Shown piece by piece: positions 8,461 through 25,870 of a stretch of DNA of 64,000 bases. The notes beneath the pieces are model-generated. The model was not told the DNA's origin and made no database searches. It saw only the letters and a list, made by a program, of their open reading frames with translations. This DNA is from Geobacter sp. DSM 9736 (GTDB lineage: Bacteria; Desulfobacterota; Desulfuromonadia; Geobacterales; Geobacteraceae), in the NCBI RefSeq assembly GCF_900187405.1, contig NZ_LT896716.1, positions 2,790,753 through 2,854,752 of the forward strand. Direction: 5' to 3'. Made by a program: the position numbers and the translations under genes. Each line of letters begins with the position of its first letter. The stretch's first letter is position 1.

Positions 8461-9708
8461 TCAGTCCCTGGGATGGCACTTGTTGCAGAGGCTCCTCTGG
8501 AACGGGGCGAAGGCACCGGGACGCCTGTCATAGTAACCCGCCCTTGTCTCCAGGGTGGTCCGCCCCTGCGCAAACCGGGAAGACTCCGGATCGTCGGTAC
8601 CCGGGTACCTGCCGTTCGCGACGATGAAAGTCGCGCCAGTATTCCACCTCGTCATGCTGTCCCACCCCGAGGCGTGAGCCCGGTGACAGGTGAGGCACAT
8701 GACGTTAGCCGTCGTGCCGGGGTCGGGGCCGGAGGAGGCCGCCCCGGAAGCATGCGCAGCACCCTCCATAACGGCATGTTCATCCGTTACCATCTCATAG
8801 GGGACCAGTGACGAGTAGGAAGAACTCCACGATCCGCTAAGGTCCCCGGACGCGACGTACGAGTTGTAGTTGGCGGCTATGCGTCCCCCGAGTACGGCCT
8901 CCGCTCCCGCAGGATGGCCGAATCCTGCGCCTGAATGTACGGACGTGTGGCAATTGCGACACCACTCGGACATGCCTCGGCCGTAGGCGACCCTCGTGTC
9001 CCCCGCCGCCTCGCTTCGGTTGTACACCCGAGGTGCGATCGCAGCAGGAGCATCGGCAGTGAATGCAGGGATAGACGGATCGTTTTTAGGCCGGTACCCT
9101 GCGCCCCCCAGCATACGATACGAGCCCGACGGCTGCCGTACGGACGTGAAGCCCTCCACAGCCCGACTCGCACCGTGGGGATTGTGGCAACTTACGCAGG
9201 AGAGGGCATCGACGGGGAATATACCGCCCGGAGCATGGAGATGTGTCCTGTCGCCGACATAGCCGAAGTCCCGGGCGACGATATTATGGCCGTGGCGTTC
9301 TCCGGGGCTCGCCTCCTCGCCACCAGACGCTCCATTCTCCCTGTCGGTCCACCAGTAGCTCTTTTTCAGCCAGCCGAAATCTCCACCCGGCGTCAGCTGC
9401 CTGGGCGGAATTCCCGGCCCCATGACCGCGGGGGGTGTAGAGACATGGTACTGCTCACCCGGTCCCGCAGCCGGTCCCTCGTGGCACAGGAGGCATGTTG
9501 ATCCTGCATCGGAACCAATCAACATACTTCCCGTGGCAGCCTGGCCGGCACCGGTCTGCCTGCCGTGGCAACCATCGCAACTGCCCGTGCCCGTGTGAAA
9601 CAGAGCCGCGCCATGACCTGCGGAAACCATGGCCGTAACTATCAGAAAGACCACCGCCCCGGCTGTCCGCACCCCATTAGACACGTGTCCCTGCTCAATC
9701 CAACCCAT
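8461..9708 (-). CDS. OmcS-like hexaheme cytochrome c (third paralog)
   Basis: 415 residues from the ATG at 9708, which has GGGGGG upstream. There is a signal peptide (TAGAVVFLIVTAMVSAGHG) and six CXXCH motifs: CDGCH, CLLCH, CVSCH, CRNCH, CLTCH and CNKCH. The spacing and intervening text (TPGGDFGWLKKSY, HGHNIVARDFGY, YGRGMSEWC, LTCHRAHASGWDSMTRW, and CNKCHPRD at the end) match OmcS throughout, so it should adopt the filament-subunit fold. It is the last gene of the locus and has a 390-base leader of its own. Whether it polymerises cannot be told from sequence. Confidence 0.9.
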   Translation of the reverse strand: MGWIEQGHVSNGVRTAGAVVFLIVTAMVSAGHGAALFHTGTGSCDGCHGRQTGAGQAATGSMLIGSDAGSTCLLCHEGPAAGPGEQYHVSTPPAVMGPGIPPRQLTPGGDFGWLKKSYWWTDRENGASGGEEASPGERHGHNIVARDFGYVGDRTHLHAPGGIFPVDALSCVSCHNPHGASRAVEGFTSVRQPSGSYRMLGGAGYRPKNDPSIPAFTADAPAAIAPRVYNRSEAAGDTRVAYGRGMSEWCRNCHTSVHSGAGFGHPAGAEAVLGGRIAANYNSYVASGDLSGSWSSSYSSLVPYEMVTDEHAVMEGAAHASGAASSGPDPGTTANVMCLTCHRAHASGWDSMTRWNTGATFIVANGRYPGTDDPESSRFAQGRTTLETRAGYYDRRPGAFAPFQRSLCNKCHPRD

Positions 9709-9738
9709 AAGCACCCCCCGAGCGACAACAATCTTCAT

Positions 9739-9754
9739 AGCAAATGTGAAACCA
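9739..9754 (-). promoter_or_regulatory. Weak sigma-54 promoter candidate for the third hexaheme gene
   Basis: On the minus strand TGGTTTCACATTTGCT has GG and GC ten bases apart and a good -12 half (TTTGCT), but a poor -24 half. It lies 31 bases upstream of the start codon at 9708. Confidence 0.3.
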
Positions 9755-10097
9755 GCGCCAATGCGCGACAAGACCTTGATATTTTTAGGTTAGATCATTG
9801 GAAACAGCTGATCGCATGATCAACGGCTGCGCAGCACTGTAATAAAAATGAATCGCTACAGCTTCATGATCGGCACATGTTCATTACAATTGAATGACAT
9901 TTACAGCAGAAGACTCTAATCTTCAAGGGTTAAATGGGAGCGGCTTGTTTTACAGGTAGAATGACTTGCAGGGAGGAAAATGTTTATCGCCGGAAAAACA
10001 GGGGAGAGGATGCAAATATTATAGTGCACTTGTGGTGGCCGGGAGGACGGCACTTTACACTGCGAAGGCTTTCTGGTGGAGAGACGTAGCTGCCAGG
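9755..10097. other. Non-coding gap between monoheme gene and third hexaheme gene
   Basis: About 340 bases with lower GC than the flanking genes. Apart from the weak promoter candidate at its edge I see no gene, riboswitch or clear terminator. A short AAAGCC segment near 10067 resembles part of a GEMM aptamer, but the rest of that fold is missing. Confidence 0.5.
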
Positions 10098-10400
10098 TTA
10101 CCGGGAGCTGCGGGAATTCGAGCCCCCGATGGAATCGCATCCGGAGGAGCCGTTGATGTTTGCAGGCGCTTTGCGGGGGTAGCTGCCTGATTCTGTTTCA
10201 ACTGGTGCAAAGGTAGCCCTGGAGTGGCACCCGCCACAGTTGCCCGTGCCGTCGTCAGGCAGGAATGCTCCGCCGCTGCATATCCCGGCACCCAGGAAGG
10301 TGGCCATCACCAGGATGACCACCTTCCGCCGGTTTTTTGCCGCGCGTGCAGCTGCGTTGAGCCGATTGAAGTATGCGTCGTCTAGAAATTTCTCTTTCAT
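10098..10400 (-). CDS. Small membrane-anchored monoheme protein, possibly a truncated cytochrome
   Basis: 100 residues. A positively charged start (NAAARAAKNRRK) is followed by a hydrophobic helix (VVILVMATFLGAGICSG), then one heme motif (GTGNCGGCHS), then a Ser/Gly-rich tail with no further heme. The segment before the heme resembles the start of the neighbouring hexaheme protein (HTGTGSCDGCHG). It is either a genuine monoheme protein or what is left of another OmcS-like copy. It lies 43 bases after the upstream NHL gene, in the same direction. Confidence 0.6.
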   Translation of the reverse strand: MKEKFLDDAYFNRLNAAARAAKNRRKVVILVMATFLGAGICSGGAFLPDDGTGNCGGCHSRATFAPVETESGSYPRKAPANINGSSGCDSIGGSNSRSSR

Positions 10401-10443
10401 GATGTAACTGTGCCGTTCAACCGCCGTACCTGATGTCCGGCGG

Positions 10444-11340
10444 CTATCGTATCATCTTGAACATCTGGACACGGCTGTTGTCGCGGTCCGTCAGAAAGAA
10501 GTCCCCATTGTCGCCGATGCATGCCTGGGAAGGGTAGTGTACGAGGCCGGACTTCCTTCCCATGGCGAGCTGGCGCCCTTGGAAGGAACCATCCTGCCCG
10601 AGGATGATGATGGCGCTGCCATTCTGGTCGGTAACGTAGATACGCCCCTGGTTGTCGGTGGTGATCGCCGCAGCAAAATCGAGGTACTCCCTCAGGGATC
10701 CGCCGAGAGGCTTGAATTCCTTCGCCTCGCGTCCTGCGACATAAAGCACCGATTTGGTGCTGTCGAGCAGCAGGATGTTTCCTTTGGAATCAACGGCTAT
10801 ATCGGACAGAAAGCCGTAACCTCCAGGAAAAGGAATTTCCCCTGTCTTCTTCCCAGCCGGATCCAGGACGGTTACCCGCTCCTGGCGGACGTCCAGGATA
10901 TAGATCGCATCGTTTCCATCGATGGCGAAGCTCTTGGGAGCTGCGTTAGCCCCCGCATCGACATACCCTGCGAAAGCACCATCCGGGCTGATCCGTCCCA
11001 CCCGGCGCTGCTTTCCGTCCAGCACAAGTATCTCCCCCTTGCTGCTCAGGTGCACCCGTGTGGGATAGGGGAGTTGGGAAACCTTAAGCTCGGCTCCCGG
11101 CTTCAGGCTATCGTTCTGTACTGAATAGCGGACAAGTCGGCCATTGCCGGTGTCGGCTACTACGATCCCCCCTTTGGAGCAGGCGACCCCTTCAGGGAAC
11201 TTCAGGTAGCGCCCCTTGTCGTCGAGGAACTCGCTCGCCGCCGGCTTCAGCTTCAGATTCTCGGCCGCTTTTGCCGCAACGGGACAGGATACGGCGGCAA
11301 TTCCCGCTATAGCCAGGCAAAGGAGTTGTTTCCGTGTCAT
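10444..11340 (-). CDS. Exported NHL-repeat beta-propeller protein
   Basis: 298 residues from the ATG at 11340, preceded by AGAGGTG. There is a signal peptide (LLCLAIAGIAAVSCPVAAKA) and about six NHL-type blades, for example GIVVADTGNGRLVRY, NILLLDSTKSVLYV, RIYVTDQNGSAIIIL and DFFLTDRDNSRVQMF. Such propellers are protein-binding scaffolds in the periplasm or on the cell surface. Its start lies 4 bases from the stop of the 16-heme cytochrome gene, so the two are surely cotranscribed. NHL genes also neighbour omcS in G. sulfurreducens. Confidence 0.85.
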   Translation of the reverse strand: MTRKQLLCLAIAGIAAVSCPVAAKAAENLKLKPAASEFLDDKGRYLKFPEGVACSKGGIVVADTGNGRLVRYSVQNDSLKPGAELKVSQLPYPTRVHLSSKGEILVLDGKQRRVGRISPDGAFAGYVDAGANAAPKSFAIDGNDAIYILDVRQERVTVLDPAGKKTGEIPFPGGYGFLSDIAVDSKGNILLLDSTKSVLYVAGREAKEFKPLGGSLREYLDFAAAITTDNQGRIYVTDQNGSAIIILGQDGSFQGRQLAMGRKSGLVHYPSQACIGDNGDFFLTDRDNSRVQMFKMIR

Positions 11341-11344
11341 TTTG

Positions 11345-12628
11345 TCACCTCTTGAAGTTGTCATGGCATTGCGTGCAAAGTTCCGTCGTAGTCGGAGCGG
11401 TGAGCATCTTCTTGTATTCGGTGCCATGGGACTTGTGGCAGCTGAGGCAGCTCAGGGAAGTGCTCTTGTTCCTCGGGTCCTTGAACTTCTCGCCGATGGG
11501 GTGCGTCGAGTGCTTGCCCCAGTCGTGGCACGACGCGCTGCACATATCGAAGTCGGCAGGTTTCACCGTCAGGAAAACGTTATCGGACGCATGAGGATTG
11601 TGGCAGTCCGTGCACCTGCCGCCCGCTACCGGTTCATGCTTCGACATCAGTTTCCCCTGCCGCTTCATGGTGTCCTGGTGGCAGCTGCCGCAAAGGTTCT
11701 GCATGGAATCCTTGAGTATCCCCTTCTGCTTTCCGGCATGGGGGTTGTGACAGGAGAGGCACCCCTCCTTCCCGATCAGGGGCGCATGGACCCGGTTTTT
11801 ACCGAAGGTGACATTGACCATGTCGTTATGGCAGCCCCTGCACAGCTCGGACCCGCTCTTCTTGGTCTTCAGCGGGTTGGCGGAGGTCGCTTCCTCATGA
11901 CACTGGTTGCACATCTTGTTCGCAATCGGCTTGTGCACGTTGTTGTAGAGGATTCCCGGCATGTTGGAGCCGTGAGGGTCATGACAGCCGGTGCAGCGGG
12001 CCGAAGCTACGGGATAATTCATGTGCTTCTTCACGAAGAGGGGCTTGTCGGTCTTATGGCACCCGATACAGAGCCCGTTGATGTCGTTCTTGAGAAGATA
12101 CGGGAACTTTCCCGAAGCATGCGGATCATGACAGGTAAGACAGCTCTTCGCCACGGGGCTATGCTTGAACTTCATCTTTCCAGCCGCTTCCCCCATCTCC
12201 TTGTGGCAGGCGAAGCAGAGCTGATTCCCTGCGCCGAGAAGATTGAATTTATTGGCGGCTGCATGGGGGTCATGGCACTTCATGCACTCCCCATCCGCTA
12301 CCACCTTGTGGGTGCTGGCCGCCTTTGCAGGAATGACGGTGTCGTGGCAGGTAAGACATACCAGCTTCACATCTGCTGCGAGCATCTTGCCGTGATTGGA
12401 GGTGTGGGGGTTATGGCAGCCGTTGCACTCCCCGTTTTTAAGGGGTGTATGGACGAAAGGCCGGGCCATGGTGTCCTGGAACGTCGGGTGGCATCCGAGG
12501 CACAGCTTCCCCTTCGATCCGGGCTTCAGTTTGTACACAAGGTCGTTGTCCCTGGCGTGGACCGGCTGTACCAGGAACATCCCGGCTGCGGCCAATATTA
12601 ACATCACTGCTCTCTTACGTATCTTCAT
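11345..12628 (-). CDS. 16-heme c-type cytochrome (15 CXXCH plus one CX3CH)
   Basis: 427 residues with a signal peptide (VMLILAAAGMFLVQPVHA). I count 15 CXXCH motifs, mostly in the doubled-CXXCH pattern CxxCHNPH or CxxCHDPH, plus one atypical CSASCH near residue 360 that has three residues between the cysteines. The pattern predicts a long rod of stacked hemes working in the periplasm or across the outer membrane. It follows the 26-heme gene by 16 bases. The expanded CX3CH motif may still take heme, but that is not certain. Confidence 0.93.
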   Translation of the reverse strand: MKIRKRAVMLILAAAGMFLVQPVHARDNDLVYKLKPGSKGKLCLGCHPTFQDTMARPFVHTPLKNGECNGCHNPHTSNHGKMLAADVKLVCLTCHDTVIPAKAASTHKVVADGECMKCHDPHAAANKFNLLGAGNQLCFACHKEMGEAAGKMKFKHSPVAKSCLTCHDPHASGKFPYLLKNDINGLCIGCHKTDKPLFVKKHMNYPVASARCTGCHDPHGSNMPGILYNNVHKPIANKMCNQCHEEATSANPLKTKKSGSELCRGCHNDMVNVTFGKNRVHAPLIGKEGCLSCHNPHAGKQKGILKDSMQNLCGSCHQDTMKRQGKLMSKHEPVAGGRCTDCHNPHASDNVFLTVKPADFDMCSASCHDWGKHSTHPIGEKFKDPRNKSTSLSCLSCHKSHGTEYKKMLTAPTTTELCTQCHDNFKR

Positions 12629-12644
12629 GGTGATGGCTCCCTGT

Positions 12645-14609
12645 TTACTTTGCCACGATATGGCATTCATCACACGACCGTCCGGCGAACGGCGCATGCA
12701 CCTTGCTCTTGAAGAACTTCGGGTCGTTGGAGGCATGCGGGTCGTGGCAGTTCATACAGCGAAGCTCGGCCGGTGAGATGTCGAGATGTGCTTTGCCGAA
12801 AGAAGGTTTCCCGTAGTCGTGGCACTGCTCGCACAGCCCCGAAAGCGGCTGCGCCGCCAGAGAGGGCTCAGCCGAAAAATGGGGCTTGTGGCACGTCTGG
12901 CAATCCTGCTGTGCCGGTGAATGAGGCTTCTCCTTGGTAACCTTCTCGTTCACGTTCTTATGGCAGGTGAAGCAGAGGTCCGGACTCTGGGCAAAGAGCA
13001 GTTTGTTCAGCTTCGCCTTATGCGGGTTGTGGCACTTGGTGCATTCCCCGCCGGTGAAGGGCCCATGGCTGCTTTTTGCCTCCTTCATCCCTTTCTGTAC
13101 GTCGGTATGGCAGGTTGCACACAGGACATCCTGAGGCGATTCAAGCATCCCCTTGACGCTGCTCCCGTGGGAAGCGTGGCAGGTAAGGCAGTCCCCATCC
13201 ATAAAGGGCTTGTGGTTCGTCCCCGGCTTCTCTTCCTTCATGAGGTCTGCATGGCAGGGAGTGCACAGCTCGGGCACCTTCGCCTTGAGCAGTTTTCCCA
13301 TATCGGAGCCATGGGCCTTGTGGCATGAGGCACAGTCGGCGGTCATCACCGGCTGGTGCGTGTAGGTCTTCTTGAACTTGGTTTCCGCATCGGAGTGGCA
13401 ACTGTAGCATACGGTGTCCATGCGGTCCTTCAACATCCCGCTGAAGTTCGATCCGTGCGGATTGTGGCAGTTGCCGCATTGCCCGGAACCGAAGGGGAAA
13501 TGCACGTTCTTGCTCTTCTCACCCTCCTTCGTCTTCGCATGGCATGGGTAGCAGAGATCGGCGCCTTCCGCGACAAGGAGACGTTTAAAGGGAGCCGCAT
13601 GGGGTTTGTGGCAGGAAAGGCAGCCTTTACCGGTGGTGACAGCACCGTGTCCTGCGACCATCTTCCCCGACTTGTCCTGATGGCAGCTGAAACAGAGCTG
13701 GTTTCCTTCCTCCAGCTGCAGTTTCACATGCTCCGACGCATGAGGATTGTGGCAGGAGAGACATTCAGCCGCCTTGAACGGAGAATGCTCCACAGTGCCG
13801 TTCCCTTTCATGGTCTTGGCGTCATGGCAGTTGGCGCAGAGCTCCCCCCCCTTCTGCGTGACGCCGAAAGGCTTGGCATCGGTAGGAGCGTTGTGGCATC
13901 CATCGCACCCAGCAGTGGCAACAGGGTTGTGGACGCTCTGCTTCAGAAGCTTTCCCTGGACCGAGGAATGTGGATTGTGGCATCCGGTACAGCGCTGGCC
14001 TTCGACAGGGTAGTTCCCGTGGGCCTTTTTGAAGGAGGCTTTGGAGCTGTCGTGACAGCCCAGGCAAAGCGCGGGCTCGGCCTTCTTCAGGAGCCTTTTT
14101 TCATCGGAGCTGTGGGAAGCATGGCACGCTCCGCATCCCTCCTTCAGCAGGACCTGATGGACATTTTTCTTTTCGTAGTCCTCTTTCTTGTGGCACTGGT
14201 AACAGACTGCGCTCCCCTCTGCTTTCAGGAGGTGAGGGTATTGCGAGGCGTGCGAATTGTGGCAGGTGGAACATTTTCCGACCTTGAGGGGAGCATGCAC
14301 GTTTGCCTTGTTCAGGCCGATCTTCTCTTTGGCATGGCAGGTATAGCAGACCTGGTTCCCCTCCTTCTTGAGGAGAAGCTTGGCCACGATACCATGGCGC
14401 AGGTGGCACTCCTCGCATTTCTTCTCCTTCACGCTGGTATGGATGTACTTCATCGAGGAGTACTTGTCCGCAAACTTCGTATGACAGTCCATGCAGTCTT
14501 TGCGCGCGAATTTCTTCGCGGCATGGGCATCGGTTCCCGTCACAAAAAGAAGGCCGATCAGCACAGCCAGTGACCAGACACTCCTCTGCAGGTAGTTATG
14601 AATACGCAT
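12645..14609 (-). CDS. 26-heme c-type cytochrome
   Basis: 654 residues with a signal peptide (SLAVLIGLLFVTGTDAHA). I count 26 CXXCH motifs spread evenly from CMDCH near residue 40 to CDECH at the end, nearly all alternating between a plain CxxCH and CxxCH followed by NPH, KPH or ASH. This is the doubled-CXXCH architecture. A 26-heme protein of this kind is also encoded near omcS in G. sulfurreducens, from memory. AGGAGAG lies 6 bases before the ATG. The role is probably long-range electron transfer between periplasm and exterior; no partner can be proven from sequence. Confidence 0.95.
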   Translation of the reverse strand: MRIHNYLQRSVWSLAVLIGLLFVTGTDAHAAKKFARKDCMDCHTKFADKYSSMKYIHTSVKEKKCEECHLRHGIVAKLLLKKEGNQVCYTCHAKEKIGLNKANVHAPLKVGKCSTCHNSHASQYPHLLKAEGSAVCYQCHKKEDYEKKNVHQVLLKEGCGACHASHSSDEKRLLKKAEPALCLGCHDSSKASFKKAHGNYPVEGQRCTGCHNPHSSVQGKLLKQSVHNPVATAGCDGCHNAPTDAKPFGVTQKGGELCANCHDAKTMKGNGTVEHSPFKAAECLSCHNPHASEHVKLQLEEGNQLCFSCHQDKSGKMVAGHGAVTTGKGCLSCHKPHAAPFKRLLVAEGADLCYPCHAKTKEGEKSKNVHFPFGSGQCGNCHNPHGSNFSGMLKDRMDTVCYSCHSDAETKFKKTYTHQPVMTADCASCHKAHGSDMGKLLKAKVPELCTPCHADLMKEEKPGTNHKPFMDGDCLTCHASHGSSVKGMLESPQDVLCATCHTDVQKGMKEAKSSHGPFTGGECTKCHNPHKAKLNKLLFAQSPDLCFTCHKNVNEKVTKEKPHSPAQQDCQTCHKPHFSAEPSLAAQPLSGLCEQCHDYGKPSFGKAHLDISPAELRCMNCHDPHASNDPKFFKSKVHAPFAGRSCDECHIVAK

Positions 14610-14634
14610 GAATCTCTCCTAGCTGTTGAAGACT

Positions 14635-14659
14635 GAGGTTGTTCACTTTCAACAACCTC
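14635..14659 (-). other. Intercistronic hairpin between ppiC-like and 26-heme genes
   Basis: GAGGTTGTT and AACAACCTC form a perfect 9-bp stem with a 7-base loop. There is no T-run, so it is more likely an mRNA-stabilising or processing hairpin than a terminator. Confidence 0.5.
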
Positions 14660-14660
14660 C

Positions 14661-16373
14661 CTAGTTCTTGAGGTCGACGTAGATCTCGATGTCCGACGCT
14701 TCCCGCAGTTTCGCCGCCCACCCCTCGACGATCTTGTTCAATTTCTGGAAGTACAGCGTCTTCTTGATGTCTTCCTCCACGTCCTGCAGCGGCTGCTCCC
14801 TGGCCGGGACCATATCTAGAATATTCAGCACGTAATACTCGCGCTCTTCGTCGTAACGCCGGTATTCGCCCGCCTTGACACCCGTCAGCGCCTTCTGGAC
14901 CCCTTCAGGCAACTGTGTCTTGACGATGAGGCTTCCATCGAAGTTGAGCTTGGGTGCGGTCAGGAGACGGCCTTCGGCATTGGACTTGAACCATTTGAAG
15001 TCCATCCCTTTTCTCAGCTTCTCGACGGCCGCTTCGGCATCCTTGGCCGATGAAAAAACCATCGCGTCGATCTTGAACATCTCGGGATATGTGTACTCCG
15101 CCAGGTGCTCCTTGTAATAGGCCTGCACGTCGTCGGCATTCAACCTGACCTCCGGCCGGGCAACCTTCTCCACGAAGGCGCCGAAAAGAACGGAAGCCTC
15201 GAAGTCGGCCACCTTCTTCACAACATCCGGGCTCTTGTCCAGCCCCTGCTGGAGTGCCTCTTTCTCAAGGACCCTGTCGGAATAGATCTTCAGCAGCAGT
15301 TCCTGCTTCGCTTTGTTCACCTTCTTTTCAGTGACGGCGGATTCAACTCCGTGAAAGAACTTCTCCTGGATGGCAGCGGCTAGATCACTCACCGTCACTG
15401 CTTTCATCCCCTCTATCTCCGCTATGGTGCGGGTATCCTTCAGAAGCATCTCGAAGCCCGGCTCCTTCGCCTCGAAATCAAGACCGTCCAGAAGTTTCCT
15501 GTCCTCCTTGACGTGCTTTTTAATCAACTCCTCACGATAGGCTTTGAGGGACTTTAGCCGTGCTTCCGTGAGGACCTGGCTCCGTGCCTTCTCCTTCATC
15601 TGCGGGTCCTCTTTGGAACGGACATCGTCGATCTTGAAGATCAGGTAACCCGCCTCCAGTGGAATCACGGGGGTAACCTTACCCGACTTCATGCCGAGCA
15701 GCACCTTCAGGATGCCGGGGGAGAAGCTGGCGCGGGTGACGTACGTCGGGTCCTTGGTCCCCTCGGCATGCTTCCCGTTTACCGCCTTATCGTAAACGGC
15801 TCCGAAATCCTTGCCCGCCTTCAGCTCTTTCGCCGCTTTCTTCGCCTGGGCCTCATCCTTGAATACTAGCGACCTCAGCTTCCACTCTATGATGCTCGCC
15901 TTGTATTCCTTTTCAATTTCCGCTTCATCAGCCTTCACGTCCTTGACCCGCTCCGCCATCAGTTTTTCACGGATGGTCTTCCGGGTATTCTTATCAATAA
16001 GCTCCTGTATCTCCGGGAGCTGGTCCAGTCCCATGTTCCTGGCTTCCTGGATGATCACCCTGGAATTGATGAGCCGGTTGAGGACCTCGGAGAAATCCTG
16101 CTTCTTCATGGAGCTCCCTGCGCCCTTGGCCATTCCTTCGTGGAGCATCGAGAGAGACTCGTTCAGCTCTGCGCCGGTTATGACCTCGTCGTTGACTTTT
16201 GCAACGGCAGAGGCTGCAAACTCAGGCGCGAAGAGCATATCCGCTATATTACCCTTACCCGTCTCCGCGGCACTTCTTTCCCCCACCGGCGCTGTCTCGG
16301 CCGCAAAAGCCGTGACTCCCGACAGAATACCTACGCATACGACCACTTTTGCCAGCAATCCGTTACTTTTCAT
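14661..16373 (-). CDS. Periplasmic peptidyl-prolyl isomerase (PpiC/SurA-like)
   Basis: 570 residues with a signal peptide (LLAKVVVCVGILSGVTAFA). A SurA-like helical region (VINSRVIIQEARNMGLDQ-type) is followed by a parvulin domain around residues 180-270 (WKLRSLVFKDEAQAKKA, PVIPLEAGYLIFKIDDV), and a second degenerate parvulin-like region near residues 440-550 (EYRRYDEEREYYVLNILD). Its likely job is folding or escorting exported proteins of this locus. The start at 16373 overlaps the upstream lipoprotein gene by 11 bases. PPIase genes recur beside cytochrome filament genes. Confidence 0.88.
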   Translation of the reverse strand: MKSNGLLAKVVVCVGILSGVTAFAAETAPVGERSAAETGKGNIADMLFAPEFAASAVAKVNDEVITGAELNESLSMLHEGMAKGAGSSMKKQDFSEVLNRLINSRVIIQEARNMGLDQLPEIQELIDKNTRKTIREKLMAERVKDVKADEAEIEKEYKASIIEWKLRSLVFKDEAQAKKAAKELKAGKDFGAVYDKAVNGKHAEGTKDPTYVTRASFSPGILKVLLGMKSGKVTPVIPLEAGYLIFKIDDVRSKEDPQMKEKARSQVLTEARLKSLKAYREELIKKHVKEDRKLLDGLDFEAKEPGFEMLLKDTRTIAEIEGMKAVTVSDLAAAIQEKFFHGVESAVTEKKVNKAKQELLLKIYSDRVLEKEALQQGLDKSPDVVKKVADFEASVLFGAFVEKVARPEVRLNADDVQAYYKEHLAEYTYPEMFKIDAMVFSSAKDAEAAVEKLRKGMDFKWFKSNAEGRLLTAPKLNFDGSLIVKTQLPEGVQKALTGVKAGEYRRYDEEREYYVLNILDMVPAREQPLQDVEEDIKKTLYFQKLNKIVEGWAAKLREASDIEIYVDLKN

Positions 16374-18115: not shown

Positions 18116-18198
18116 CGGTTCCTCTCGTTTCTAATGAGTGTGTTGCATATGATACCGCACTTTCAATGAAACGGTAGTGCGCCCCATCACAATGTGGG

Positions 18199-20448
18199 TC
18201 AGAAAGTGAATCGCGCAGCCGCATTAAGGCTGTACGAGTCGATCTGCTGCGTCGTGGAGCTGCTCCTCGTAATCAGGTACGACAGGTCGAAATAGGAGCT
18301 GCTGCGGAAATACCACCGGAGGCTGTTCACCAGCGACCGCGTTTCCTGCGAGCCTTGCGAAGCGGCACTCTCGTTGTACGAAATGTTGTACAGAAGGTTC
18401 CCTTCGCGAAATGGCGCCCATGATCCCCCCAGTGTCCTTATCAGCTGTGTCTTCTTGTCGGTTTCCGTGGTCACGGCGAGCGACCCGAAGAGATAGGCGC
18501 TCCTGAAGGGGGTCAGGGTGAAGGATATTTCGTTGTCCTGCTTGTAGGAAGTCGTATCGGGGAGGCCTCCTCCTGCCGACCACTCCTTCTTCCCGGAAAC
18601 GCTGAGGTTGATGTTCGCCTTCGGATGCGGAACAAGATTCGCGCCTGCGATGAAAATGGCATTGTCCGATCTCCTGTCGATGGCTGAGATCCCCCGGCTC
18701 ACCCCACCGTTGAGAAAGACATTTATCCCCCGGTATAGCTCCGCCGTGTTGTTGAGAAACAGCGAATAACTGCTGGTGGTCGCCCCCTCCGAGTCTTCGT
18801 TTCGACCGCTGAACAGGAGAGAACTCGTAAGTGCCGGGACGGGTACGGCCGTCAGCGAGGCGCTGTATACCCAAGCCGACCGTACTGCGGACGGGTCGAA
18901 AGAGTCTTCCCGGGTGATCCGCCCGCTCGTCGAATAGATACTGCTGAACTGGTGAGTGAGCGATAGTGAGTTCGTCACGAAGTATCTCTGGGAAGAGCCG
19001 GTATCGGCATTGAAATGATCCAGTGTGAAGTTCAGATCGTAGAAAACCGAAGGCTTGTCGAAGATCCTCACCCTGCTGTTCATCTCGTAGTGCCCGGAAA
19101 TGCTGCTGTTCTCTCTCGCAGACGCGGGAGCAAAAGCCTGCAGCCGAACTACGTTGGCGGCAGCCACGCCGGGGCTGCCGGCAAGAGGCTCCGGAAGCGA
19201 TACCGGGGTAGTCACTATCTTCAGGAAAAGCCTGCCGCTCCCAGGGGTCGTTATGGTGGGAAACCTGAACTCGAATCCCCTCGTACCGTCACCGAAATCC
19301 TTGTTGAAAACTCCGGGAACCACCCGCTCGAAGGTCCAGTCGATCCCGTTTTCGCTGGTGTACAGGCTCCAGGTGAAGCCGGCGGGGATGTTCTGCCCCG
19401 AGATATCCTGGTCCACCAGCAACCTGATGACGTTAACCGAAGATCGCGGAGGAAGCTCGATGCCGAAGTTGCGGGTTCTCGTGTCGGGTAGCCCCGCCAC
19501 GTTGAAGAAGGCGATAGGGGTGTTGGCGCTCCCTGAGACGAGGGGATCGAAGAGATCGAGGGCACCCGAGTTTAAGGGATCTACGGACGATACGACACTC
19601 GTATCGATTATCTTGAAATATCCATGCACCGGGACCACGGGAATCATTACCTGGGCAAGGTCGGCGGCGTGAATGCGGGTCGACTGTGATGAAATGTTGT
19701 AGGTGGAGTATAGTGAGACCCTGCTTCTCCAGAACGTGTCGTTGTAAGCGATCCGTGCGTTCTGGTTCAGCGAGGTGATCTCCTGATCCCGCAGCTTGTC
19801 CTGCAGGTTGCTGAAAAGCACCTGGTAGGTGAGGTCCAGGTTCTTCAACAGGCTGTATCGGGCCGTAACGGTGACGGAATCGTTGGCCGAGTTCTGGAAC
19901 GATCTGTCGGCATCATAGAGGTCGATATGTGTGTAGAAGGTGTCGATGGCCGGAAGGCCCTGCGGCCTGAAACCGAGCTGCGCATTGTAGGTGTCGTTGA
20001 TGGAGGTGAAGGATGGAGCCCCTGCCGTCCTCGTTATTTCCTGCCTCCTGGAATACCCCGTCCCCGCCGAGACAATCCCGTTGTTGAAACGAAGGTTGGC
20101 GAAGGGAGAAAGCCTGGTCTGCCTGCTCGCGAGGGAGTTGGAAAGGCTGCCTGTCTCCATCTCGAAGTCGCTCCTGTTAAGCTCGATGTTTCCTCCGGCG
20201 GAAAAGGTGAGGTGGGGATAGAGCGTGCGGTCCAGCGAAAGGTTGTACCGCTGCATGAGCGCCGTTCCTGCCGTCTTCCCCGAAGTCCCCGCCGCATCCT
20301 CGGTTTTCGATTCTGACTGGGAGAAGCTGTACTCCATGAAGCCGGAAATCCCGTCCGCCTGCACGAGCCGCGGCAGCGACAGACACATGAGCTGAAGCAG
20401 GATTCCCCGGATCAGGTGCAAAAGCTTTTTTTTCGCAGCCATACCCAT
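18199..20448 (-). CDS. Outer-membrane beta-barrel protein of the OmcS locus
   Basis: 749 residues with a signal peptide (LLQLMCLSLPRLVQA). The protein is dominated by alternating short amphipathic strands (NLTYQVLFSN-like, RYFVTNSLSLTHQF, EISFTLTPFRSAYLFGSLAV) and ends in AAARFTF, the C-terminal aromatic signature recognised by the BAM complex. Residues about 250-400 form an insert with WSLYTSENGIDWTFERV that looks like a discoidin-type beta-sandwich, presumably extracellular. It is probably a barrel of more than 20 strands. It begins 7 bases after the propeller lipoprotein gene. It could serve as porin sheath or as export channel. Confidence 0.82.
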   Translation of the reverse strand: MGMAAKKKLLHLIRGILLQLMCLSLPRLVQADGISGFMEYSFSQSESKTEDAAGTSGKTAGTALMQRYNLSLDRTLYPHLTFSAGGNIELNRSDFEMETGSLSNSLASRQTRLSPFANLRFNNGIVSAGTGYSRRQEITRTAGAPSFTSINDTYNAQLGFRPQGLPAIDTFYTHIDLYDADRSFQNSANDSVTVTARYSLLKNLDLTYQVLFSNLQDKLRDQEITSLNQNARIAYNDTFWRSRVSLYSTYNISSQSTRIHAADLAQVMIPVVPVHGYFKIIDTSVVSSVDPLNSGALDLFDPLVSGSANTPIAFFNVAGLPDTRTRNFGIELPPRSSVNVIRLLVDQDISGQNIPAGFTWSLYTSENGIDWTFERVVPGVFNKDFGDGTRGFEFRFPTITTPGSGRLFLKIVTTPVSLPEPLAGSPGVAAANVVRLQAFAPASARENSSISGHYEMNSRVRIFDKPSVFYDLNFTLDHFNADTGSSQRYFVTNSLSLTHQFSSIYSTSGRITREDSFDPSAVRSAWVYSASLTAVPVPALTSSLLFSGRNEDSEGATTSSYSLFLNNTAELYRGINVFLNGGVSRGISAIDRRSDNAIFIAGANLVPHPKANINLSVSGKKEWSAGGGLPDTTSYKQDNEISFTLTPFRSAYLFGSLAVTTETDKKTQLIRTLGGSWAPFREGNLLYNISYNESAASQGSQETRSLVNSLRWYFRSSSYFDLSYLITRSSSTTQQIDSYSLNAAARFTF

Positions 20449-20454
20449 CCCGCC

Positions 20455-21906
20455 CTACTTCTCTCCGAAGAGAGCCGCCAAATACGGCTCCTCTCCCACG
20501 TCTATCTGCCCTACCACTTTCTTGCTCACCAGGTTCACCAACTGCACCGTCGCCGAGCCAAGGCGCACCCCGACCAGGTTGTTTTCGTCACCATCGATGG
20601 TGAGATATGAAATACCCTCCTCGGCCGGAATTGAATCCACAGGTATGTAGGAATAGGAATCGAAGATCTCCGTCTTCCCGCCGATCCGGTAACCAGCGTA
20701 GATAAAATCGGTGGAAGGATTGATCTTCAGTGCGGCAATACCCATCCCTGCATAAACCCTTTTCTCTGCGGAAAAGGAGGCCGGGTTGATCACAAGGAGG
20801 TAGGGAGACATGCTGTGGCTGACCACCAGCCTGTCCCCTTTCCGGTTGAACTGTCCCCGCATCGGTCCCGACTCGGTGGGGATGGTCGCGGAAACCAACC
20901 TGGTCGCCACGTCGATCACGGAAATGCTGTTGGAGAGAGTGTTGAAGACGTAGATCTTGCGCCCTTCTCTGTCCATCACGAGCGTAGAGGGACGGTTTCC
21001 GACATTGACCCTGGCAGCTTCGGTTTGAGAGAGGGGATCGAGAAAGCTGACGGTATTGGAACCTGAATTGACAGTAATCAGAATACGGCCGTCGGAGGCC
21101 AGGGCGATTTCGCGGGGAGCGTCACCGGGGTGCAGGCGGATCCTGGAAATGACCTCGTTTGTGTTAGTATCGATAACCTCTACGGCATCGTCACCGGAAA
21201 CGGCCACATATGCCTTTCGCTGAAGCTGGTCTATGGCGATTCCAGCGGGAGCCCTCCCCGTCCCGATAACACGGGCGACCCTGGCAGCACGTTTGTCGAA
21301 CACCGTGACGGTGTCGGACCCTTCGTTGGACACGTAGCCTGTAACGGAGGGGAGCGGATTTTCAGGAATGGAGAGACTGAAAACCGGATCGAATCCTATC
21401 CCCCCTTTCAGCGATTCCCGCCCCTTCAAGACTGCGGATACGACCGTCGCTTCCCGCTTTTCGACCTGAAAGGCAAGCTCCTTCCTTGCCGGTTTTTCGG
21501 GGAGAAGAAGTGCCGCGTCCCCATCCTCGTTGTGCAGATGTGCCTTGGCGATCTTGAAAATAAAGCCGGAATATTCCCCCGCCGGGAGTTCACCCACTGC
21601 AAGCAGGCGCTGCCTCCGTACCGCACCCCCCTGAAGCTCCGACATCCTCAGGGCTAGCGGCACCTCCACCCCGTCGGCCTTCACTGCGGAAATCCCGGCG
21701 AGGGAGAAAGTTATCCGGTCGGCATCCTGTGGAAGCGGCTCCATGTACAGGTAGAGCGCACCGCTCTGCGGGTCGGAAAATGGTTTCCTGATCGTCCCGG
21801 TACTTCCGGCACATCCGGCGACCATGATGACGGCTATCCCTGCTGCCAGCATCCTGACCACTCCCGCCATTCCGGGCATACGTTTTTCAGCTGATGTCTT
21901 AGTCAT
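20455..21906 (-). CDS. YVTN-type beta-propeller lipoprotein
   Basis: 483 residues with lipobox VAGC after a hydrophobic stretch. The first ~150 residues form a DUF4382-like beta domain. Residues about 180-480 form a seven-bladed propeller of YVTN repeats (VTGYVSNEGSDTVTVFD, KAYVAVSGDDAVEVIDTNT, KIYVFNTLSNSISVIDVAT). The ATG at 21906 overlaps the stop of the preceding cytochrome as ATGA, which decides the start. It is anchored at the outer membrane, probably to bind partner proteins. Confidence 0.82.
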   Translation of the reverse strand: MTKTSAEKRMPGMAGVVRMLAAGIAVIMVAGCAGSTGTIRKPFSDPQSGALYLYMEPLPQDADRITFSLAGISAVKADGVEVPLALRMSELQGGAVRRQRLLAVGELPAGEYSGFIFKIAKAHLHNEDGDAALLLPEKPARKELAFQVEKREATVVSAVLKGRESLKGGIGFDPVFSLSIPENPLPSVTGYVSNEGSDTVTVFDKRAARVARVIGTGRAPAGIAIDQLQRKAYVAVSGDDAVEVIDTNTNEVISRIRLHPGDAPREIALASDGRILITVNSGSNTVSFLDPLSQTEAARVNVGNRPSTLVMDREGRKIYVFNTLSNSISVIDVATRLVSATIPTESGPMRGQFNRKGDRLVVSHSMSPYLLVINPASFSAEKRVYAGMGIAALKINPSTDFIYAGYRIGGKTEIFDSYSYIPVDSIPAEEGISYLTIDGDENNLVGVRLGSATVQLVNLVSKKVVGQIDVGEEPYLAALFGEK

Positions 21907-23261
21907 TGCGGCACCGTCGAATGGCATTTCTCACACAGCCCGGGCTGCATGGGGGAGAATCTGGTAACGGGTGTATTGTAATTTGCGGCGGCAGCTTCAA
22001 GTTCCGTTCTCCCCTGCCCGTATGGCTGGAACGGCTCCCCCGCCTGTGAATACTTACCGTCGTACACGATGTAGCTGCTCCTGGTGTTCCACCTGGTCGC
22101 GCCACCCCACCCCGACGCATGGGCGCGGTGGCAGGTGAGACACATTACCTGCGGAGTTCCGTTGCCGGTATTCGGCCCGGCGGTGGGCGTACCGGTCACA
22201 GCCTGCTTCAGGGCAGAGTAATTTGCACTTCCGATCTCGAAGGGAACAAGGGAAGAGTAGGAAGAGCCCTCGATGCCGGTCAGATCCCCCTGCTTCACAT
22301 ACTGATTGTAGTAGGAGACTATCTGCGAACCGAGAATACCTGAACCGCTTCCGGATGGATGCCGCAGACCGGCGGCACTGCCGTTATGAATGTTCGGATG
22401 GCAGTTCCTGCACCACTCGGACATTCCGGCCCCGTAGGCCACCCGGGTAATGCCTGTCTCTTCGGAACGATTGTAGTTGGTCGGTGCTACGGCAGCCGGT
22501 GGGTTACTCGTGAAGGCAAATCCGGCGGTGACGGGTTTAGGGTGATAGCCGGCACCCCCCAGCAGCCGGTAGACACCAACCGAAGCTGCAGAGTCAGGGT
22601 TGGGACTGCTTTCATAGGAGCCTGAGCTTTTGATCGGTTTACCGGTCCTGGAAATGGACCCGTCGGAGTCTCTGCGGTATATGCCGTGTGGATCGTGACA
22701 GCTGATGCAGGAAAGATTTGCCGCGGGATAGCTCCCGCCTGGAGCCGTGGTCTTTGTGCTGTCGGCGAAGTAGCCGTAGTCGCCGGCTACGATATTGTGG
22801 CCGTGGCTGTCGCCGTTGCTGGAACCGAGCGGGGCTCCGAAGGAAGGAATCCAGGTGTAGGTTTTTTTCAGCCACCCGAAATCGCCGCCGGGGGTGAACT
22901 GCTGCGGGGGAACACCGGCCGGCATATCTGTGGGCGCAGTGCTTATTTGGTGCGGGGTTGTGCCGGCGGCAAATGAGCGTTGATGGCAGTTGAGGCAGAC
23001 TGAGCTGGAGTCGCTCCCCTTGAGCAGGTATTGCCCCGACTGAAACTGCGGCAACGTGCTTACGACTGGCATTCCTTCGGAGGAATTATGTATGGTGTGG
23101 CACCCCTCGCATTCGCCGGCGCCACCGTCGTGAAAGGCGCTTGCCTTCTCCATGGCCAGCACGGAGGCAAAGGCAGACAAAGCTATGATGAACACAGATG
23201 ATGCTTTCAAAAGCGGTCCCTTTGGCGTCCAGCACACGGACACCTCAACCTCCTCGGACAT
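21903..23261 (-). CDS. OmcT/OmcS-like hexaheme cytochrome c (second paralog)
   Basis: Six heme motifs (CEGCH, CLNCH, CISCH, CRNCH, CLTCH, CEKCH) sit in the same order and spacing as OmcS, with the shared blocks TPGGDFGWLKKTYTW, HGHNIVAGDYGYFADS, YGAGMSEWCRNCHPN and LTCHRAHASGWGG. The signal peptide is KASSVFIIALSAFASVLA. The start is uncertain: ATG at 23261 is preceded by GGAG, while a TTG at 23210 would align best with the omcS start. The gene follows omcS after a strong palindrome and lacks a riboswitch of its own. The position equals that of omcT beside omcS in G. sulfurreducens, but orthology is not proven. Confidence 0.9.
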   Translation of the reverse strand: MSEEVEVSVCWTPKGPLLKASSVFIIALSAFASVLAMEKASAFHDGGAGECEGCHTIHNSSEGMPVVSTLPQFQSGQYLLKGSDSSSVCLNCHQRSFAAGTTPHQISTAPTDMPAGVPPQQFTPGGDFGWLKKTYTWIPSFGAPLGSSNGDSHGHNIVAGDYGYFADSTKTTAPGGSYPAANLSCISCHDPHGIYRRDSDGSISRTGKPIKSSGSYESSPNPDSAASVGVYRLLGGAGYHPKPVTAGFAFTSNPPAAVAPTNYNRSEETGITRVAYGAGMSEWCRNCHPNIHNGSAAGLRHPSGSGSGILGSQIVSYYNQYVKQGDLTGIEGSSYSSLVPFEIGSANYSALKQAVTGTPTAGPNTGNGTPQVMCLTCHRAHASGWGGATRWNTRSSYIVYDGKYSQAGEPFQPYGQGRTELEAAAANYNTPVTRFSPMQPGLCEKCHSTVPQ

Positions 23262-23359
23262 CACATTACATTTCCACTCCGTTATTCATCTCATATTTGC
23301 TGCCGAATAGCTGTGCCTCCGGTCACAACTGGCGGCTGGATTTGGTCGGAAAAGAAGAT

Positions 23360-23385
23360 CCGGGGCCGGCTTAAGCCGGCCCCGG
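23360..23385 (-). terminator. Perfect 26-bp palindrome downstream of omcS (attenuating terminator)
   Basis: A perfect palindrome able to form an 11-bp GC-rich stem with a TTAA loop. On the minus strand it is followed by a broken pyrimidine tract (ATCTTCTTTTCC). It starts 23 bases after the omcS stop, so it should reduce read-through into the second hexaheme gene and protect the omcS 3' end. Confidence 0.75.
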
Positions 23386-23407
23386 AGATGGCATTGCACT
23401 TCAGCAA

Positions 23408-24724
23408 TTAGTCTTTAGCATGGCACTTGTTGCATAGCGCTCTCTGGTAGGGAGCGAACTTGTCTGCCGTACGGTCGTACAGTGCTGCGGACTGCTCAGC
23501 AGGAGTACGGCCAAGGGCGGACTTGTCATTCGGATCGCTGGAGAAAATCGGGTTTCCGCTCGCATCGGCAACGGTGAAGTATTCGCCATTCTCGAGTGCG
23601 CCGAACCTGGTCATGCTGTCGAAGCCGGAAGCATGGGCGCGATGGCAGGAGAGGCAGTTGACGTTGGCGGTTGCTTCAGGACCATTGAGGTATGCGTCGG
23701 TGTTGCTGGCGTGCGCCTTGAGGGTAGCGTAGTCGGCAGTCCCCTCCTCGAACGGAACAAGCGAGCTGAAGGACTTGGTGTTGTCGGTGTTGGTCAGGTC
23801 GCCGGACTTGACATACTTGTTGTAGTTACCAGCAATTGTGGCACCGAGCTTGGCGCCGTTACCGGCAGGGTGGGAAAGCGAGCCCATGCCGCTGGTGAAG
23901 GAAGAACGGATGATGCCGGTGTGGCAGTTGGCGCACCACTCGGACATACCCTGGCCGTAGGCTACACGGACCTGCTTGGCAGCTTCGGACTGGTTGTAGG
24001 TGCTCGGTGCGACAGCCGCGGGAACCGTGTTGGCGAAGCCGAAGGAACCCTGGAGCGACTTCGGCTGGTAGCCTTCGCCGCCGAGGATGCGGAACACGCC
24101 TACAGCACCTTTACCTGCGACCGGATCCTTGCTGTTGTGGTAAGAACCGCTGTTGAAGATCGGAAGACCGGTCTGGGTGATGGCGCCGGTCGCATCACGA
24201 CGGTAGGTTCCGTGCGGATCGTGGCAGCTGGAGCAGGCGAGGTTGGCGGCAGGGTACTCACCACCAGGTGCCTTGGTCAGTTTGCTGTCGGCGCTGTAGC
24301 CGTAATCTGCAGCAACTATGTTGTGGCCTTTGCGCTCGCCGAGGCTGGTACCGGGCTCACCCCTCATGACCCAGTTGTAGGTCTTCTTGAGCCAGCCGAA
24401 GTCGCCGCCCGGAGTCCTCTGGAGCGGGGCGGTGCCTGTGGGCATGTCGGCCGGAGCGGTCGAGATGTGGTAGCTGCTGGGGCCGGTGTCGCCTGCATGC
24501 TGGTGACAGTTGAGACATGCGGAGCTCTGGTCGGAACCCTTCAGCAGGTAGGGTCCGGTCTGGAACTGCGAGAAGGAGGTAGTGACCTGCTTCCCTTCGA
24601 GAGAGTTATGCATCGTGTGACAGCCTTCGCACTCGGCGACGCCGCCGGCGTGGAATGCCATTGCAGGGGTACTGAGCAGCAATGCGGTGGCAGCTGCAGC
24701 GAGTGATACGTTAAGAGCTTTCAT
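23408..24724 (-). CDS. omcS: OmcS, hexaheme cytochrome nanowire subunit
   Basis: 438 residues, with signal peptide LAAAATALLLSTPAMA and mature start FHAGGVAECEGCHTMHNS. Six CXXCH (CEGCH, CLNCH, CSSCH, CANCH, CLSCH, CNKCH) ending CNKCHAKD. The blocks QHAGDTGPSSYHISTA, APLQRTPGGDFGWLKKTY, ERKGHNIVAADYGY and YGQGMSEWCANCHT match G. sulfurreducens OmcS as I remember it, so orthology is nearly certain. OmcS polymerises outside the cell into filaments with a continuous heme chain and supports reduction of Fe(III) oxides. The ATG at 24724 has GGAGG upstream, and that site lies in the riboswitch expression platform. Confidence 0.96.
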   Translation of the reverse strand: MKALNVSLAAAATALLLSTPAMAFHAGGVAECEGCHTMHNSLEGKQVTTSFSQFQTGPYLLKGSDQSSACLNCHQHAGDTGPSSYHISTAPADMPTGTAPLQRTPGGDFGWLKKTYNWVMRGEPGTSLGERKGHNIVAADYGYSADSKLTKAPGGEYPAANLACSSCHDPHGTYRRDATGAITQTGLPIFNSGSYHNSKDPVAGKGAVGVFRILGGEGYQPKSLQGSFGFANTVPAAVAPSTYNQSEAAKQVRVAYGQGMSEWCANCHTGIIRSSFTSGMGSLSHPAGNGAKLGATIAGNYNKYVKSGDLTNTDNTKSFSSLVPFEEGTADYATLKAHASNTDAYLNGPEATANVNCLSCHRAHASGFDSMTRFGALENGEYFTVADASGNPIFSSDPNDKSALGRTPAEQSAALYDRTADKFAPYQRALCNKCHAKD

Positions 24725-24732
24725 TCGGGTAA

Positions 24733-24839
24733 ATCCTCCCAGATTTTCTTTCTCCGGCAGCCCAGCCATCCTGTTCTTCGGAAACGCAGGATCTGTGGCT
24801 TTGTGTCCCCGCCTTACAGCGGGTTTACGTTCGGAGGAT
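24733..24839 (-). promoter_or_regulatory. GEMM-I riboswitch controlling omcS, with Shine-Dalgarno sequestration
   Basis: Read on the minus strand, the aptamer has GUAAACC, a hairpin with CCGC/GCGG, the conserved GGGACACAAAGCC, a second stem CAGAUCCUG...CAGGAU and GGCUGGGCUGCC (tetraloop receptor side). This is the order of GEMM-I aptamers. P1 can form between CUCCG (24836-24832) and CGGAG (24756-24752). The 5' strand AUCCUCC (24839-24833) is also exactly complementary to GGAGGAU (24739-24733), which contains the omcS ribosome site. Ligand-stabilised P1 would therefore free the site: a translational ON switch. Geobacter GEMM-Ib switches near exoelectrogenesis genes are known to sense 3',3'-cGAMP; the ligand here is inferred. 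Confidence 0.88.
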
Positions 24840-24931
24840 GGTGTGTGATAGCTTCTGTTCAATACAATAACGGTGCTGCCTCTGGTCCTTCCTTTTCCGC
24901 TCGTCCACCTCCTTTTCCTCCCTGTACTTGT

Positions 24932-25870
24932 TCAGCCATTGCTGATTTGAAAAACACTGACCCCCCTGTTGCGGATCTGGCTCACGTACACCTTGTTAGT
25001 TGTGTCTACTGCTATTTCGCTGGGGCCAATCAGGTTCCCCGGCTTGAACCCCCGGAACCCGAATTCTTTCAGAAGCTTGAAGTCCTTGTCGAAAACCATC
25101 ACCAGGCAGCGCAGGGTATCGGTAACAAGCAGATTGCCCTCCTTGTCCGCTGCGACACCGGTTACGACCCCGAATTTGCCGGGACCGCTGCCGCGCTTGC
25201 CGAAGGAGCTGATCTGGCCATCCTTCGCCATGCGGTAAACTTTTGCCATCGTAGGCATGGTGAAATAGAAGTTCCCCTGCCGGTCGAGAGTTATGCTGCC
25301 GATGCCCGAATCGAGACGCTCCTGCTCCAGGAGTCCGATCTTGGTCGCAAGATCGATGGTATCCAGATAATTCCCATATTGATCCACCATCACGAATCGC
25401 ATCGAATTCAGGCTTGCCAGGTAGAGAGTGCCGTCGACAAGGAAAATACGATCCGGTAGAAACTGGGCCAGCTCCTCCGGCAGATTTTTCAACTCCACCG
25501 GCGAAATCGGCTCAGCCCTGAAGTTGCAGCGGACAACCTGCGCCTTCCTCTCCTTCAGGGTAAGAAGAAAAAGATCTCCGCCCGGATCGATCGCTACGTC
25601 ATACACGACTCCCATGGTGGGGTCATAATCGACCCGGAAAATCTCCATGCCACTGCTGTTGAAAATAGCTACCGACTCACCTGAGAGGGCGTAAATTTCG
25701 TTCTTTGTGTCGTCCAGCTTGATCTTTGCCGATGAATAGGGCTTCGAACCTGTGAAATCCGAGAGATTGTAGAGGTAGGAAGCCTTCAGCTCCCCTGCCC
25801 TCGATGGGTCAGCCAGGATCATCAGAAGCAAGGCTGCAATCATCATATGTCGTACGGTCTTCACCTTCAT
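24932..25870 (-). CDS. Exported NHL-repeat beta-propeller protein, first gene of the OmcS locus
   Basis: 312 residues with a signal peptide (MMIAALLLMILADPSRA). Blades include SAKIKLDDTKNEIYALSGES, GSITLDRQGNFYFTMP, GVAADKEGNLLVTDTL and SEIAVDTTNKVYVSQI. A six-bladed NHL propeller exported to the periplasm or surface. Genes of this type flank omcS in G. sulfurreducens. It lies about 60 bases downstream of a sigma-54 promoter candidate and 207 bases upstream of omcS. Its role is likely protein-protein scaffolding; no enzyme motif was seen. Confidence 0.85.
   Translation of the reverse strand: MKVKTVRHMMIAALLLMILADPSRAGELKASYLYNLSDFTGSKPYSSAKIKLDDTKNEIYALSGESVAIFNSSGMEIFRVDYDPTMGVVYDVAIDPGGDLFLLTLKERKAQVVRCNFRAEPISPVELKNLPEELAQFLPDRIFLVDGTLYLASLNSMRFVMVDQYGNYLDTIDLATKIGLLEQERLDSGIGSITLDRQGNFYFTMPTMAKVYRMAKDGQISSFGKRGSGPGKFGVVTGVAADKEGNLLVTDTLRCLVMVFDKDFKLLKEFGFRGFKPGNLIGPSEIAVDTTNKVYVSQIRNRGVSVFQISNG

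Follow-up and report, generated by a model that had tools for sequence, protein, structure and literature searches.

The osc operon of Geobacter sp. DSM 9736 and a putative PelC-like lipoprotein collar for export of the OmcS nanowire cytochrome

We analysed a 64,000-nucleotide stretch of the Geobacter sp. DSM 9736 genome (contig NZ_LT896716.1, positions 2,790,753 to 2,854,752), referred to here as the window, which carries on its minus strand, between 25870 and 8461, a block of 12 genes and one 100-residue open reading frame (ORF). This block is the osc (OmcS-companion) operon, a locus that has already been published and is not new. We consider it reasonably likely that in Geobacter-family species this operon serves OmcS, which would be folded by OscH and exported via the OscE barrel together with a collar of the PelC-like lipoproteins OscF and OscG. 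How cytochrome wires reach the outside of the cell is under active study in extracellular respiration and bioelectronics. As the locus and its OmcS link are published, our addition is a sharper target: a PelC-like collar beneath OscE should be looked for, not a curli-type pore. The curli analogy should give way to a PelC-like one.

In the window, omcS is followed by oscC, D, E, F, G, H, I, J and K in the order of GSU2504-GSU2493 of Geobacter sulfurreducens, some gene letters being assigned by order. The G. sulfurreducens operon has been tied to OmcS maturation and secretion (Shen et al. 2025, as cited in PMC12977616 and PMC13194489). A recent link between the eight-gene block GSU2500-2493 and these two processes is noted in PMC12977616, where 12 of 12 genomes with the block carry a GSU2501-type hexaheme cytochrome and omcS is not present in all. 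The roles proposed in G. sulfurreducens are folding for OscH, secretion for OscE, F and G, and morphology for OscD (PMC13194489, citing Shen et al. 2025). A first-pass annotation of the window had described a one-directional block of these genes at 8461-25870, in agreement with the gene calls, the heme motifs and a match to a solved OmcS structure, and had read it as machinery devoted to folding and exporting OmcS, in which the isomerase would be the chaperone, a reading that the published proposals bear out (PMC12977616, PMC13194489). Its statement that the way OmcS leaves the cell is not known is partly out of date, the export set having been published (PMC12977616, PMC13194489).

The first hexaheme protein of the block is OmcS by sequence, as first annotated, and a putative filament-forming subunit. 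Its gene (23408..24724, minus strand) encodes 438 residues from the re-called ATG with six CXXCH motifs, and residues 70-484, counted from the listed start, match the solved filament subunit 6ef8 over its whole length (residues 1-407) with an E value of 1.8e-188. Between the first NHL gene and omcS, at 24753-24839 on the minus strand, we found a match to Rfam RF01051 (57.7 bits against a gathering threshold of 35), a c-di-GMP-I (GEMM-I) riboswitch in the omcS leader. Because the riboswitch occupies these positions, the start of omcS is most likely the ATG at 24724 rather than the TTG at 24862. Its ligand may be c-di-GMP or cGAMP, and a riboswitch of the OmcST operon sensitive to both is already in print (PMC6456294).

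Of the two lipoproteins, OscF (17513..18115, minus strand, 200 residues) has a single domain, and the model of OscG (16363..17541, minus strand, 392 residues; pLDDT 84.8) shows two tandem copies of one alpha/beta domain. OscF is related to OscG at an E value of 6.8e-14 in profile comparison and so supplies a third copy, as the first-pass annotation had supposed for these two proteins. A lipoprotein signal is present, with the lipobox cysteine column filled in 37 of 38 OscF and 26 of 34 OscG sequences. The OscG alignment (A1) comprises the window's protein and 33 of 41 OscG sequences, after removal of six long ones and two near-duplicates; alignments A2 and A3 hold 35 of 38 OscE and 37 of 40 OscF. 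The fold belongs to the wide PelC/GNA1162/LpoB/TolB-N/CsgG superfamily, and the closest solved members are not CsgG. Against solved structures, the OscF profile finds GNA1162 best (3.5e-6) and then PelC (3.4e-5), while the OscG profile finds PelC best (6.4e-6). When the OscG model was searched with Foldseek, ranks 1-18 were all PelC or PelBC entries, its Z scores to PelC 5t11, 5t0z and 9h80 were 16.3, 15.6 and 14.8, and its second domain superposed on PelC 5t11_E (Z 16.3) at 2.6 Å over 138 residues. The closest family of the lipoproteins is therefore PelC/GNA1162, by profile for OscF and by both profile and model for OscG.

The first-pass annotation had called these lipoproteins CsgG-like and suggested a curli-like export route, in which OscF and OscG would be CsgG-type pores spanning the membrane themselves. 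CsgG does lie in the same superfamily, its best entry reaches Z 12.1 against the OscG model (4.5 Å over 131 residues), the CsgG family PF03783 matches 4 of 38 OscF and 3 of 34 OscG relatives at E values up to 0.01, and a single CsgG sequence matches the OscF profile of a divergent cassette described below with 80% probability (E 1.3e-5). However, the window's OscF scores 14.3 bits against PF03783, below the cut-off of 20.8, OscG has no CsgG match in the Pfam scan, where no family passes its cut-off, and the organism's own genome gave no match to the CsgG family at an E value of 1e-3. CsgG is likewise missing from both profile lists of solved structures at E values up to 1, and a single E. coli CsgG sequence matches the OscF and OscG profiles with probabilities of 7% and 5%. 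There is also no room for the two membrane hairpins that each CsgG subunit has: between anchor positions picked by eye, the strands flanking the first hairpin are 44 residues apart in CsgG, 30 in OscF (38 of 38), 23 and 28 in the two domains of the window's OscG and 29 in PelC, and the second spacer is 39 residues in CsgG, 26 in OscF and 25 and 24 in OscG. The hairpin stretches of CsgG are thus 13-21 residues shorter in OscF and OscG, the first being about as long as in PelC, and the corresponding turns in the OscG model are short. Finally, a separate barrel gene is present in 54 of 54 testable loci of named genomes. It is unlikely that OscF and OscG make a pore of their own; we rejected the CsgG pore reading on the Pfam cut-off, the own-genome search, the profile comparison and the hairpin spacers, and regard the curli-like route as very improbable.

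A second alternative is that OscF and OscG are envelope factors akin to LpoB or TolB, which would open the peptidoglycan or hold it for the machine and form no ring. OscF passes the Pfam cut-offs for both GNA1162-like and LpoB, at E values up to 0.01 its relatives match GNA1162-like in 38 of 38 and LpoB in 27 of 38 cases (4 of 34 OscG relatives match LpoB), and TolB chains reach Z scores of about 11 against the OscG model. On the other hand, PelC and GNA1162 outscore LpoB for OscF by profile, PelC does so for OscG by profile and fold, and OscF-like genes stay beside the barrel gene in both cassette types, so we think such a peptidoglycan role improbable. A literature search on OmcS with CsgG or PelC returned nothing evidently on such a likeness; the text of Shen et al. 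2025 lay outside that search, so we make no claim on its fold assignments. Longer OscG frames of 760-1442 residues were seen in L074:10014-13421, L075:6583-9990, L084, L090, L096 and L100, and in the five viewed (all but L075) the signal sequence is separated from the two PelC-like domains by repeats judged Ig-like by eye.

OscE (18199..20448, minus strand, 749 residues) is a predicted large outer-membrane beta-barrel. Its AlphaFold2 model (pLDDT 86.3, pTM 0.64) combines the strands of a barrel with a domain inserted at about 262-429, and has no helical repeat region such as that of PelB, and 29 long strands were counted from DSSP elements outside the inserted domain, so that a predicted barrel of 28-30 strands is a fair guess. 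Modelled in this way, OscE could let a folded OmcS subunit through or form a sleeve around a cytochrome. Fold searches matched unlike barrels, including siderophore receptors, MtrB, ushers, FimD, OccK, AlgE and SprA, with TM scores by query length of 0.18-0.29 among the 50 Foldseek matches listed, and no one clear relative emerged.

The presence of MtrB among these matches bears on a further alternative, that the block is chiefly a trans-envelope electron conduit in which OscE is an MtrB-like sleeve around part of the 26-heme cytochrome OscI (12645..14609, minus strand, 26 CXXCH), which in turn plugs into OmcS, and in which the lipoproteins only brace the sleeve. MtrB stands at Foldseek rank 3 (4.1e-8), and chain 6r2q_B aligns with OscE at Z 16.2 over 433 residues, at 8.1 Å and among many other barrels. 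OscI and the 16-heme OscJ (11345..12628, minus strand, 15 CXXCH and one CX3CH) are also the best kept members between the two cassette types (3e-143 and 1.3e-85 in profile comparison), and 60 of the 61 OscI matches listed for 195 genomes share a contig with an OscG-type match. But large barrels in general match OscE (OccK, AlgE, FimD and SprA), and two of the three genomes examined for an OscI-less locus have no OscI match at E values up to 1e-20 yet hold OscE and OscF, one of them with OmcS alongside. A secretion role has moreover been proposed for OscE, F and G (PMC13194489). We therefore rate the conduit as unlikely, if less so than the other two alternatives.

Export of OmcS through OscE and a PelC-like collar is consistent with the distribution of the genes. 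Among 195 Desulfuromonadia genomes, OscG (E up to 1e-30) was found in 42 and OmcS (E up to 1e-20) in at least 43, both in 41, OscG only in one, OmcS only in two and neither in 151. The first-pass annotation had suggested asking whether the lipoproteins occur as often without omcS, and the link between OscG and OmcS held in these counts, the exceptions being the genomes G039, G190 and G114. In the window's own family 19 genomes have both, 15 have neither and one is discordant, and therefore gain and loss go together there. The one genome with OscG only is G039, whose contig begins inside oscD. At a looser E value of 1e-3, an OscG-type match was found in 58 of the 195 genomes, 56 of them with the 26-heme OscI at E values up to 1e-70; in each genome the searches for OmcS and OscI scored no more than a few top candidates (up to 8, 6 and 3), so that their counts are lower bounds. 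A 26-heme gene outside the listed OscI matches is present in L119.

We also scanned named genomes with the OscF profile and found 57 loci, which by record titles belong to Geobacter and other Desulfobacterota, Nitrospirota including Nitrospira, Acidobacteriota, Schekmanbacteria and Anaeromyxobacter; the osc gene order recurs in the Nitrospirota, Acidobacteriota and Myxococcota records. Where enough flank was available, and counting presence as a best hit of at least 40 bits, OscE was found in 54 of 54 loci, OscG in 52 of 54, OscH in 50 of 53, OscI in 49 of 52, OscD in 46 of 47, OscJ in 45 of 48, an OmcS-like protein in 43 of 44, OscK in 39 of 42 and the first NHL protein in 31 of 38. L144 was counted from cut OmcS-like pieces only. 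Complete sets from the OmcS-like gene to OscJ were found in 37 of the 39 loci with both flanks long enough. The 57 named loci and 60 other stretches share genomes, and related genomes are not independent, so the Fisher values serve as description only. Two records titled Nitrospira, a genus of nitrite oxidisers, hold an osc operon with three OmcS-like genes each (L124 and L133), and in L139, L146 and L153, titled Acidobacteria or Vicinamibacterales, OscF is followed by a roughly 1000-residue frame that matches no osc gene.

A few loci are reduced. L143, in a metagenome-assembled genome titled as a chromosome, carries only NHL, OmcS and OscD, E, F and G. L150 holds a short OscE and OscF only, with OmcS-like genes elsewhere in the genome and no OscI match in it at E values up to 1e-20. 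In L152, H, I and J are absent nearby, and OscH and OscI lie on another contig of the genome; L153 is cut off.

By following weak OscG matches we found 19 stretches (L102-L120) that carry a parallel, divergent cassette. Its usual order is NHL, one or two 12-heme cytochromes (in 15 of the 19), barrel, an OscF-like protein, a protein of about 500 residues with an OscG-like first domain, a third OscF-like lipoprotein, isomerase, 26-heme cytochrome, 16-heme cytochrome, NHL, a cytochrome of about 370 residues and an OscD-like gene. Genes were chosen from the surroundings of the 26-heme gene according to their position, length and number of heme motifs; the 26-heme gene itself was found in 18 of the 19 stretches (L116 is a 3.9-kb contig). 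When profiles of this second type were compared with those of the first, the barrel matched at 4e-56, OscF at 3.9e-35, OscG at 1.2e-19 (one domain), the third lipoprotein to OscF at 1.8e-24, the isomerase at 1.7e-36 and the NHL protein after the 16-heme gene at 3.1e-32, the latter being the one covered among the second-type NHL and OscD-like genes. The cytochrome of about 370 residues is present in 14 of the 19 stretches and missing from L107 and L117, although genes past its place were read. This small cytochrome, with five CXXCH and one oddly spaced site, matches OmcS at 1.3e-37 by profile (alignment A4, 14 of 15 five- or seven-heme genes) and finds 6ef8 at 6e-19, and we dropped the idea of a second cassette without an OmcS-like protein. 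A divergent cassette with an OmcS-like cytochrome of its own indicates that the machine is modular. Both cassettes occur in at least six genomes among the stretches examined (G023, G031, G037, G077, G085 and G189). Across 395 genomes of the phylum, at least 45 have a 26-heme match at E values up to 1e-70, with a gap between a strong group (above 680 bits) and a weaker one (about 250-500 bits). A core of 26-heme and 16-heme cytochromes, isomerase and propeller was reported in 2017 in bacterial partners of anaerobic methane-oxidising archaea (ANME), with more than one clade and with two copies in one genome (PMC5539420). The second cassette probably overlaps the operons described for such partners in PMC5539420 and PMC10553843, and we do not claim it as new.

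From the gene content, gene order, predicted folds and co-inheritance that we observed directly, we infer a collar, a direction of transport and a feed of electrons. Expression of omcS would be set by the cyclic-dinucleotide riboswitch. OmcS would leave the cytoplasm through Sec and receive its hemes in the periplasm, where OscH, a SurA-like chaperone with PPIC-type isomerase domains (14661..16373, minus strand; Pfam Rotamase_2 6.4e-26 in two stretches, with SurA_N_3, SurA_N_2 and Rotamase also above cut-off), may keep it soluble and competent for assembly. It would then cross the outer membrane via a complex of the putative pore OscE with OscF and OscG, which by their fold may form a PelC-like ring on the periplasmic side. 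The abstract of Shen et al. 2025 reportedly uses the term 'channel-like OscEFG' and names OscH as a prolyl-isomerase chaperone. The propellers OscD, OscK and the first NHL protein could serve docking or quality functions at the membrane. The most likely task of OscI and OscJ is to bring electrons through the periplasm to the filament's base as it grows, and they would not be export parts; this charging role is favoured over an export role because one genome seemingly lacks OscI.

Several observations weigh against this reading. The two genomes with OmcS only (G190 and G114, both drafts) have no OscG and no OscE match, and the genome of L143 has no OscI match at E values up to 1e-20 and no OscH match at E values up to 1e-3. 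OscF has GNA1162 and not PelC as its best profile match, while the OscE model lacks both PelB-like helical repeats and one clear barrel relative. In addition, OmcS export depends on pilA-N, which points to further parts (reviewed in PMC12307469). Given the lack of matches to both in the genome of L143, OscH and OscI are possibly not always needed, and the gene set of L143 may be a minimal exporter. The divergent cassettes and L143, seemingly with only NHL, OmcS and OscD to OscG, help to ask which parts form such an exporter. As a broader proposal, which we put forward only tentatively, OscE, F and G might be a PelBC-like exporter re-used for folded heme proteins, in which PelC-like subunits, some with one domain and some with two, together form a lipoprotein ring that feeds cytochrome subunits into the barrel, itself of about 28-30 strands. 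In this view the module would have come to serve at least two unlike OmcS-type filaments, with 12-heme cytochromes and a third PelC-like lipoprotein added in the second cassette. The 26- and 16-heme cytochromes would wire the exporter to the periplasm and so charge the wire where it is built.

The remaining genes of the block, all on the minus strand, are as follows. An NHL-type beta-propeller protein of 312 residues opens it (24932..25870; Pfam NHL and Mala_s_1-like above cut-off), and a gap of 207 bases precedes omcS from its re-called start. Next lies oscC (21903..23264), an OmcS-like hexaheme cytochrome of 453 residues as listed, with an uncertain start, six CXXCH and 54% identity to OmcS, which directly precedes oscD; the gap at its 5' side is 254 bases as re-called and 143 as listed. 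OscD (20455..21927) is a YVTN-type beta-propeller lipoprotein (Pfam YNCE 1.1e-13; lipobox pattern), and OscK (10444..11340) is an NHL beta-propeller (Pfam NHL 1.4e-21). From oscD through the 100-residue ORF, intergenic distances range from -29 to +83 bases. A further OmcS-like hexaheme cytochrome downstream of oscK (8461..9738, six CXXCH) follows a re-called gap of 359 bases and is matched by L061 hexaheme proteins in tblastn; in L061, oscK is likewise trailed by two hexaheme genes. Across the cytochrome ORFs of the block, the heme motifs number 6, 6, 26, 16 (15 CXXCH and one CX3CH), 1 and 6. The ORF with one motif is that of 100 residues (10098-10400), which has a membrane-type N-terminus and by eye resembles the start of a hexaheme cytochrome. 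It is possibly a remnant of another hexaheme paralog, without support from tblastn, in which three L061 cytochromes matched only the 436-residue gene. A tRNA gene lies upstream of the block at 28992-29064 on the plus strand.

Compared with known systems, the block has the same four core genes as the operon of ANME partners, in whose description the part of PMC5539420 available to us does not single out the barrel, the lipoproteins or a link to OmcS. The osc operon of G. sulfurreducens has the same genes in the same order, whereas the window has two hexaheme genes before oscD, one after oscK and none in the place of omcT; the block is therefore another species' version of that operon. The CsgG curli secretion channel is similar in being a lipoprotein of the same superfamily fold encoded beside a fibre subunit gene, but OscF and OscG, lacking the space for hairpins and falling below the Pfam cut-off, are accompanied by a separate barrel protein. 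In kind, the osc exporter would work like the PelB-PelC exopolysaccharide exporter (9h80, 5t0z and 5t11), with a barrel and a lipoprotein ring, and not like the CsgG pore. PelB is built of helical repeats and a barrel, and PelC forms a dodecameric ring. Here, in contrast, the cargo is a folded heme protein, OscG has two domains and OscE is a larger barrel with no such repeats, while both systems have PelC-fold lipoproteins encoded beside a barrel protein.

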